The notes beneath the pieces were generated by a model. That model ran no database searches. It was not told the DNA's origin and saw nothing but the letters and a program-made list of their open reading frames with translations. A stretch of 64,000 nucleotides of DNA, taken from contig NZ_JNAW01000002.1 in the NCBI RefSeq assembly GCF_000760215.1, forward strand, positions 590,300 to 654,299. The letters run 5' to 3'. Below, one piece after another: positions 11,777-15,143 of the stretch. Each line of letters starts with the position of its first letter. Position 1 is the stretch's first letter. The position numbers and the translations under genes are program-made. The stretch is from Prochlorococcus sp. MIT 0603. Lineage in GTDB: Bacteria > Cyanobacteriota > Cyanobacteriia > PCC-6307 > Cyanobiaceae.

Positions 11777-12655
11777 TCATGGCAACCAATCAAATTTAGA
11801 AAAGTCAGGCCTTCTTTTTTGTAAGAAAGCATTTTTACCCTCCTGAGACTCTTCTGTCATATAAAAAAGGTGTGTAGCTTGACCAGCCAGCTCTTGTATT
11901 CCAGCAAGGCCATCTGTCTCTGCATTAAAGGAAGCTTTTAAGCAACGTATGGCGGTTGGACTATTCTGAAGTATTTCTTTAGCCCATTTAACACCTTCGT
12001 TCTCTAATGTCTCAACTGATGTTACAGCGTTAATTAGGCCCATCTTCAAGGCATCGTCAGCGCCATATTGCCTACACAAAAACCATATTTCACGAGCTTT
12101 CCTTTGTCCTACTACCCTAGTGAGGTAACCTGCTCCAAAACCTGCATCGAAACTACCTACTTTTGGTCCAGTTTGTCCAAATATTGCATTATCTGCTGCC
12201 AAGCTTAGATCACAAATAAGTTGTAAAATCTGTCCTCCACCAATTGCATAACCAGCCACGAGAGCAATAACGACCTTTGGAAGACTTCTTATGATTCTCT
12301 GTAACTCAAGTACATTTAATTGAGGTAGACCATCATCGTCTATATAACCACCATCACCTCTAACTTTTTGGTCACCACCTGCACAAAAGGCATAACCGCC
12401 ATCTTTAGCCGGTGAAACACCAGTAAATAAAACTACGCCAATATTTTTATTATCTCGTATTTTTCTGAATGCATCGCATAGTTCCCTAATGGTTAGTGGT
12501 CTAAAAGCATTTCTTCTCTGAGGTCGATTAATGGCAACTCTTGCTATACCCTCCTGACTTATATCGAGAAAAATATCTTGATAATCACCCCAATTTTCCC
12601 AAGAACATGAAATCAGCCCTGGCAAAACTCTTCTTGCTGGAATTGAAGAATTCAA
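11777..12655 (-). CDS. menB: 1,4-dihydroxy-2-naphthoyl-CoA synthase
   Basis: MenB is a crotonase-fold enzyme that cyclises o-succinylbenzoyl-CoA on the route to phylloquinone, the photosystem I quinone. It has 292 residues. The motifs [25 protein letters not shown], the oxyanion-hole region [11 protein letters not shown] and the MenB-specific [16 protein letters not shown] are all present. The start appears to be TTG at 12655. No in-frame ATG occurs before the conserved segment. It follows menD with a gap of about 46 bp, and the pair is probably co-transcribed. The other men genes are not in the window. Confidence 0.95.
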
Positions 12656-12701: not shown

Positions 12702-14453
12702 CTAAATTATAAGTTTATTCAACTCTTTAGTAATATTTTTTCTAAGTAAATTATCCGCTCGAGAATCTGTGGCTATATGAATTAAGACTGGTCCACGATG
12801 TTTCATACACCAATCAAATGTCAATGAGAAATCTTCAAAACTTAAGAGATGCTTGTATGGAATAGAATAAGCCTTTGCTAAAGATGATAGTTGTACTGAT
12901 TGAGGCATGATAAATAGCTTATCAACATTACCTTTGGTTGGCTTATCTAGGTTTAATTGGTTAAAGATACCACCTCCTTTATTATCAATTAAAAATATTA
13001 TCAATGGATGGTCTCTTGGCTGCTTCAACAAAAAAGCATTGCTATCGTGAAAAAATGAAAGGTCACCACATATTAAAACCAATGGGCCAATGGCAAGAGA
13101 AAGGCCTATTGCCATAGAAATATTTCCATCAATACCAGAAGTTCCTCTATAACTAAAGCATCTTCTTGCAAATGATGAAGAGCCTGAAAAAGTAAAGAAG
13201 TCTCTTATAGGTGAACTTGCTGAAAGCATTATTGGCATTTTAGCTGGTAAAATATTAGAAATATTATGTGCTATCTTAGGCTCATTAATAATACCATTAC
13301 TTGAGAGTTTCTTATCAAGATATGAGTGGATTTGATTATTTTTAGCCATTAAGGAATTTAATAATTCTAGATTTTTTATTGAAGAATGATTTTGCAGATT
13401 TACATGTTTAGAAATAAATACTTTCAGCCAGGAATCGAAGCCAAGTGAATATTGTTTTGCCATATGAAGAGGGTCAAGAGGTCGCTTTTCGCCTTCTGTT
13501 ATTAATATGTGATTCTTGTTAGACAAACTCTTGATAAATCCCTCAAGATTCCTACTAGCAGTCAAAGGACCTAATCTAAGTATTTGTAAATCTTGATCAG
13601 AATTAATATTGTTAGTTGCTATTAATAATTCCCAATAATGAATTAATCCAGGCTGATCTTTCATCAAGCCAGAAAGAGGATCTGCAAAAATTGGCCATCC
13701 AGTCAAAGCTTGAAAAACCTTAACAGAATTTCTAAAAGCTCCTATATTTTCTGGTTTCCCTCTCCATGGTCCGACTAAAATAATACCAAAGAGCAATGGG
13801 TCTAAATCTTGGAAAGGCTCAGATGTTCTCTCCAAAGGATTATGAATTAAATCAGGCTTATTATCATTATCAAAAGAATCTAACTCCCATCCCAACCATG
13901 CTTTTTTTTGTTCAGTAGTAGAAGGATGCAATGGTTCTTCTATAGGCAAATTTAAATGAACTGGTCCCGGGAAAGCATGTGCTTCATTCCAAACATTGTT
14001 TACGAGCGATATTAATGATCTATTAGTAAGGGTATGTATTCCCTTAGAAGGGGCTTTGATTACAGAACGGCAAACTGACGTTAGGAATTGTTCTTGATTA
14101 ACCGATTGATTGGCTCCACAATTTTTCAGTCTTTCTGGTCTATCAGCTGTAATAAAGATTAGTGGAACACATGATTTATCTGCCTCTACTGCAGCTGGCA
14201 AAAGATTACTAACAGCAGTACCAGAAGTGGTTATTACAGCTGTAGCTTTGCCTGTTGCAGTACTTATTCCTAAAGCCATAAAAGCAGCAGACCTTTCATC
14301 AATTGCTGTATAAAGGTTGAACTGTAAATCTTCAGCCATTCCACCCAAAGCCAAAGCCAAAGGTGCCGACCTACTACCAGGGCAAAGGACTACATCTAAG
14401 AGTCCTTTATTGTATAAAGCTCTTAAAAGCTTTATAGAAATAAAAAAATTAAT
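12702..14453 (-). CDS. menD: SEPHCHC synthase (MenD), start uncertain
   Basis: MenD is a thiamine-diphosphate enzyme that condenses 2-oxoglutarate with isochorismate in phylloquinone synthesis. [13 protein letters not shown] holds the ThDP-activating Glu; [30 protein letters not shown] and the C-terminal ThDP motif ([13 protein letters not shown]) are clear. The first canonical start codon is a TTG at 14360, but the conserved N-terminal motif [12 protein letters not shown] is encoded immediately upstream in the same open frame. Between the in-frame TGA at 14525-14523 and 14360 there is no ATG, GTG or TTG. I therefore place the start provisionally at ATT 14453, with CTG 14468 also possible. 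A sequencing frameshift is the alternative. Identity is firm; the start is not. Confidence 0.9.
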
Positions 14454-14537
14454 AAGTGATAATGACAGAGAAAGAAAAGTAACTAACGTAATCTTCTCAA
14501 AAAGAAGAATCTTTTGGGGAATTCAGTACTTTATTAA

Positions 14538-15143
14538 ATGACAGATTCAGGAGCAAACAAATTAAATACCAAGAATTCTGGATGGATAAACCTAATCCTA
14601 TGGATACTTCTTGCACTATTTCTTAGATGGTTAATCCTAGAGCCACGTTGGATACCCTCTGGCTCTATGCTCCCAACATTTCAAATTAAAGACAGAATAC
14701 TTATAGAAAAAGTAAGTCCAAAAATCAATAAAATCTTTCACAAAAGCCCTGTAAGGAACAAGATAGTGATCTTCAATCCACCTAAAGCTATTACTGATCA
14801 AGGATATACAAGCAATCGAGCCTTAATAAAAAGAGTAGTTGGTATACCTGGAGATAAAATTGAAATTCATAATGGAAAGCTAGTCAGAAACGGAAAAGTT
14901 ATAGAAGAGCCTTGGGTTATAGAAACAATCAGATATGAAATGGAAGAAATTGTAGTTCCGTCAGATTCTCTCTGGGTATTAGGGGACAACAGAAACAACA
15001 GTTTAGATTCTCATATTTGGGGACCGCTATCAGTAAAAAACATTATTGGCACAGCGGTTTTTAGATATTGGCCATTTAAAAGCATAGGTCGTATACGGTT
15101 CCCCGCCAAAGAAGTATTATCTTCTTTGCACATATTGCGATAA
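14538..15143 (+). CDS. lepB: Signal peptidase I
   Basis: LepB is the membrane peptidase that removes Sec and Tat signal peptides. It has 201 residues with one N-terminal membrane segment (about 17-34). The serine nucleophile is S43 in IPSGSMLPT, and the general-base lysine is K98 in LIKRVVGIPGD. The C-terminal VLGDNRNNSLDSHIWG box is the family's box E. It starts with ATG and is divergent from menD. The proposed menD start leaves an 84-bp gap that must hold both promoters. A DUF760 gene follows 28 bp downstream. Confidence 0.95.
   Translation: MTDSGANKLNTKNSGWINLILWILLALFLRWLILEPRWIPSGSMLPTFQIKDRILIEKVSPKINKIFHKSPVRNKIVIFNPPKAITDQGYTSNRALIKRVVGIPGDKIEIHNGKLVRNGKVIEEPWVIETIRYEMEEIVVPSDSLWVLGDNRNNSLDSHIWGPLSVKNIIGTAVFRYWPFKSIGRIRFPAKEVLSSLHILR

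Follow-up and report, generated by a model that had tools for sequence, protein, structure and literature searches.

Comparative evidence for a CTG start codon of menD conserved across Prochlorococcus and marine Synechococcus

Initiation at CUG is known in bacteria but very rare: this codon accounts for about 0.024% of annotated bacterial starts (PMC11497404, PMC9845219), its yield relative to AUG in Escherichia coli is 0.86%, compared with 29.8% for UUG (PMC11497404), and the word CTG is absent from the main text of a survey of start-codon evolution (PMC5622118). A described conserved non-canonical start of another kind is the AUU codon of infC, associated in E. coli with IF3 autoregulation. 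The enzyme considered here, the SEPHCHC synthase MenD (TIGR00173), is represented by the E. coli (2JLC/5EJ4) and Bacillus subtilis (2X7J) proteins, and Arg32 of the latter is needed for isochorismate recognition (PMC2914249). On the basis of sequence comparison, we propose with high confidence that menD of Prochlorococcus sp. MIT 0603 is intact, that its translation would start at a CTG codon (14468–14466) and give a predicted 588-residue SEPHCHC synthase including the GSR motif, and that this CTG is probably ancestral.

The window, that is, the whole analyzed stretch of 64,000 nucleotides, carries menD on the minus strand as an open frame from 14522 to 12702, which ends in a TAG stop at 12702 and is bounded upstream by an in-frame TGA (14523–14525, minus strand). 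The first canonical in-frame start is a TTG (14358–14360, minus strand), and no in-frame ATG, GTG or TTG is found between it and the TGA. Directly 5′ of this TTG lie the codons for CPGSRSAP (14361–14384, minus strand), the GSR motif of MenD that contains the isochorismate-binding arginine. The first-pass annotation had claimed that the conserved N-terminus of menD lacks a canonical start and that the motif LCPGSRSAP is encoded in frame upstream of the first one; both claims are borne out. The CTG at 14466–14468 (minus strand), identified as the probable start codon from its conservation, the menD tree and the register of E. coli MenD, is in the menD frame, as is an ATT at 14453. As re-annotated, the coding sequence covers 12702–14468 (minus strand, 588 aa), CPGSRSAP starts 28 codons downstream of the CTG, and the product scores 368.8 bits against the TIGR00173 profile (curated cut-off, 244.2). 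This is the only copy of menD in the 1.75-Mb genome. It is followed directly by menB (11777–12655, minus strand; NF005637, 461 bits), and the genome also encodes menA and isochorismate synthase; since all three are found alongside the single menD, the organism appears to use the phylloquinone (vitamin K) pathway. The window and all 7 of the genus relatives recovered share the TTG start of menB in register (12655–12653), so that menD and menB form a pair in which both genes have conserved non-ATG starts. On the other side, menD is adjoined by the divergently oriented lepB, encoding signal peptidase I (14538–15143, plus strand; TIGR02227, 136.4 bits).

For comparison, we collected 141 non-identical menD loci, drawn from 40 coded genera and, through a genome scan with the alignment as query, from named records. 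Loci were grouped mainly by genus code and not by start codon; named single-cell and metagenome-assembled (MAG) records without a genus code were sorted by visual inspection of their leader and N-terminal sequences, in agreement with the tree, and the labels "LLI-like" and "HL-like" were assigned by us and are not the output of a tool. The alignment with related Prochlorococcus menD genes, a check proposed in the first-pass annotation, places a CTG at the same position in all 9 genus loci that include the 5′ end, the next codon being TCA or ACA and the homologous N-terminus coming after it. One of these loci, L008, carries 2 extra codons just after the CTG, which is still in place and in frame. 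Among the 54 non-identical Prochlorococcus and marine Synechococcus loci outside the LLI-like and HL-like clades, 52, spanning 19 coded genera as well as named single-cell and MAG records, have CTG at codon −28, counted from the motif; one further locus, L036, whose motif was missed by the search pattern and which is additional to the 54, also has CTG. The 2 exceptions keep an initiator, with TTG at this position in L062 and CTT preceded by TTG one codon upstream in L067. The start-codon column is the most conserved of 123 codon columns, no other leucine column exceeding 52% for a single codon, and on a menD tree that begins at residue −21, and hence omits the start region, the CTG codon requires 0 changes in 33 full-length rows, compared with 11 to 18 for 8 other columns. 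Judging from these sequences, the absence of a canonical start near the conserved N-terminus exceeds chance, since most relatives show it too and have the CTG in the identical register. In the CTG-grade loci, position −2 is C in 80% and position +5 is C in 96%, and codon 2 nearly always specifies serine or threonine (NCN).

Were the CTG an ordinary internal leucine codon, translation would have to begin at some other non-canonical codon, such as the ATT at 14453 or an ATT or ATA farther up, and the window does offer room for this, its frame extending a further 18 codons upstream of the CTG and containing ATT codons. However, the ATT at 14453 is replaced by ACT, ATA and AAA in the genus relatives L007, L010 and L011, respectively. 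Thus, of the 2 rare starts named in the first-pass annotation, the CTG is strongly upheld by its conservation in register and the ATT is not. A start farther upstream is contradicted by stops that interrupt the frame: 28 of the 54 loci have an in-frame stop no more than 14 codons above the CTG with no canonical start in between. In L005 (from a genome of 1,751,080 bases), L009, L049, L052, L056 and L103, the stop is located only 2 codons upstream; in L005 and L009, where it is a TGA, this leaves no possible upstream start. Furthermore, CTG is a rare leucine codon in these menD genes (6.5% of leucine codons), and an ordinary leucine would not be expected to remain CTG in 52 of 54 loci. Altogether, we regard initiation at another non-canonical codon as very improbable.

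The LLI-like and HL-like loci show what happens to codon −28 when a different start is available. All 16 LLI-like loci have TTG at −30, 2 codons upstream of the old position, which is now ATT, TTT or CTC, and all 49 HL-like loci have ATG at −30, with TCA, TCG, TCT or CTA at −28. In the LLI-like loci (the g38 loci L037–L053, and L097–L106), ATT at −28 is common, with TTT in L100 and CTC in L102 as exceptions. On the menD tree, each of the 2 clades occupies one side of a branch, both being placed among CTG loci, and L096, the sister of the LLI-like loci, retains CTG. The shift to −30 may have been a single event or 2 events, the HL branch being long. A few outgroup loci have a canonical start at the CTG position (GTG in L085 and L116, TTG in L090), and most start elsewhere. 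The position, register and conservation of the CTG, and its loss when replaced, are thus read directly from the comparison, and codon −28 is constrained where it is the sole predicted start and free where another start exists.

The CTG could also be conserved as DNA rather than as a codon, if it were part of a divergent lepB promoter in which the reverse-strand CAG lay near the −35 position and an upstream block supplied the −10 element. Such a block does exist: column counts define a conserved non-coding segment between lepB and menD (14481–14502, minus strand; consensus about TT..CCGARGATYG.ATTAGTT), which keeps a fixed distance of 12 nt to the menD CTG across genera, distant relatives included, and lepB is divergent in all groups (by tblastn, in 53 of the 54 CTG-grade loci and in every LLI-like and HL-like locus). 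Nonetheless, codon 2, which would hold the TTGACA core, varies in its third base and between serine and threonine, and a scan with the promoter consensus returned a single promoter-like site, no more than expected by chance. The LLI-like and HL-like clades, moreover, keep lepB in place and yet lost the CTG on gaining another start, and a promoter would leave the missing canonical start unexplained. Conservation of the CTG as a promoter element is therefore very unlikely. The block itself may belong to the promoter of either lepB or menD; its reverse strand resembles a weak lepB −10. We considered and rejected a regulon motif, as no copy closer than 3 mismatches was found elsewhere in the genome, and a search against Rfam gave no significant element near the menD start.

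An error of sequencing or assembly hiding a normal start has virtually no chance of being correct. Homopolymer runs are error-prone, and the first-pass annotation had suggested a frameshift at the A7 run (14442–14448; T7 on the menD strand) that would hide an upstream ATG. However, no upstream start exists in any frame open to the run: the starts in other frames (GTG 14616; TTG 14572, 14560, 14556 and 14500) all meet a stop (14534, 14497 or 14483) upstream of the T7, so that no single indel in it could restore an upstream start. In addition, the same CTG arrangement is shared by dozens of independent genomes. The gene is also singular in its surroundings. Among the genes covered in the block around menD, which is shared with 8 relatives, only in menD does the conserved N-terminus lie far above every plausible canonical start; menB was flagged in the same screen for rare starts and rejected because its TTG is conserved, and a small gene located after lepB was set aside because of its conserved ATG. 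Two antisense frames over other genes were also flagged.

Decay of menD, with a product starting at TTG 14360 and lacking the GSR motif, has in its favor that this TTG is the first canonical start, but is close to impossible given that every relative conserves the protein sequence encoded before it, with C-P-G-S-R-S invariant in the menD alignment, that the frame is intact in the only menD of the genome and that menB, menA and isochorismate synthase are present; the inactivation contemplated in the first-pass annotation finds no support here. A product starting at the TTG would lack the GSR arginine, the counterpart of B. subtilis Arg32. The CTG, by contrast, matches the expected register: phmmer aligns residue 3 of E. 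coli MenD with residue 21 of the open reading frame, which sets Met1 on residue 19, the CTG.

How a CTG start might be used was examined through the known signals of initiation. No Shine-Dalgarno sequence was found before the CTG of the window. A Shine-Dalgarno-like 4-mer occurs 3–12 nt upstream of the CTG in 9 other loci, mostly at 8 nt, which, being 3 times the mean of shuffled sequences (3) but inside their range (maximum, 12), is weak evidence for a CTG start. The conserved upstream block often carries GAGG or AGGA at 23–24 nt from the CTG, too distant for a normal Shine-Dalgarno interaction. The initiator tRNA has the normal GGG/CCC anticodon stem (GGGCTCATAACCC occurs once in the genome, within tRNA-Met(cat)), and we accordingly rejected special decoding by an altered initiator tRNA of the M1 type, which would lack the G-C run. 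The start of infC is ATG in this genome and in 8 other genomes of the genus, and the analogy with ATT-initiated infC drawn in the first-pass annotation does not hold for these organisms. With a normal initiator tRNA stem and an ATG start for infC, there is no sign that start selection is relaxed in general. The ordinary initiator tRNA would presumably decode the CTG as formyl-methionine. Such a start would probably date back to the common ancestor of Prochlorococcus and the marine Synechococcus closest to it, and lineages gaining TTG or ATG 2 codons upstream would then have been free to lose the CTG.

We infer initiation at the CTG from these comparisons, and the weakness of that initiation likewise by inference. 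Three points count against the proposed CTG start, namely that a CUG yield below 1% of that of AUG in E. coli (PMC11497404) seems poor for a needed enzyme, that the CTG of the window has no Shine-Dalgarno sequence before it, and that, with an ordinary initiator tRNA stem, no special decoding is visible. It is possible, although we put this forward tentatively and consider it rather less probable than its opposite, that selection keeps the CTG as a deliberately weak start limiting MenD and phylloquinone synthesis, perhaps with the upstream block taking part in the control. A single C-to-T change, of a kind expected to be frequent in genomes this rich in AT, converts CTG to TTG; at the CTG position, TTG is found in only 1 of the 54 loci and ATG in none. 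The near absence of this easy change to TTG or ATG, combined with the deep conservation, suggests selection for weak initiation. Since phylloquinone is a photosystem I cofactor, the retention of such a start throughout marine picocyanobacteria would offer a natural test of whether selection maintains weak starts. Wherever annotation requires ATG, GTG or TTG, many marine genomes would also be expected to have a wrongly annotated menD N-terminus. MenD entries for several of these organisms exist in UniProt, whose curators may already have placed some of the starts at CTG.

Compared with known systems, the predicted protein resembles described MenD enzymes in its full-length homology, in its GSR motif and in being encoded by a single intact gene beside menB, and Met1 of E. 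coli MenD aligns with the CTG codon. It differs from known MenD in its start, as we found no paper in the open-access literature that reports initiation at CTG either for menD or for any Prochlorococcus gene. With the AUU start of infC it shares a conserved non-canonical codon that is one substitution away from a stronger one, but the codon and the gene are different, MenD has no known link to start-codon discrimination, and infC of the genus starts with ATG; an autoregulated rare start of the infC type was rejected on these grounds. Like the annotated bacterial CUG starts, menD has CTG as the proposed initiator, located in register at the beginning of homology with no canonical start nearby. 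Unlike them, this start is conserved over a large group of genera and replaced in 2 derived clades, and it is this depth of conservation, together with how very rarely the codon has turned into TTG or ATG, that is unusual for a CUG start.
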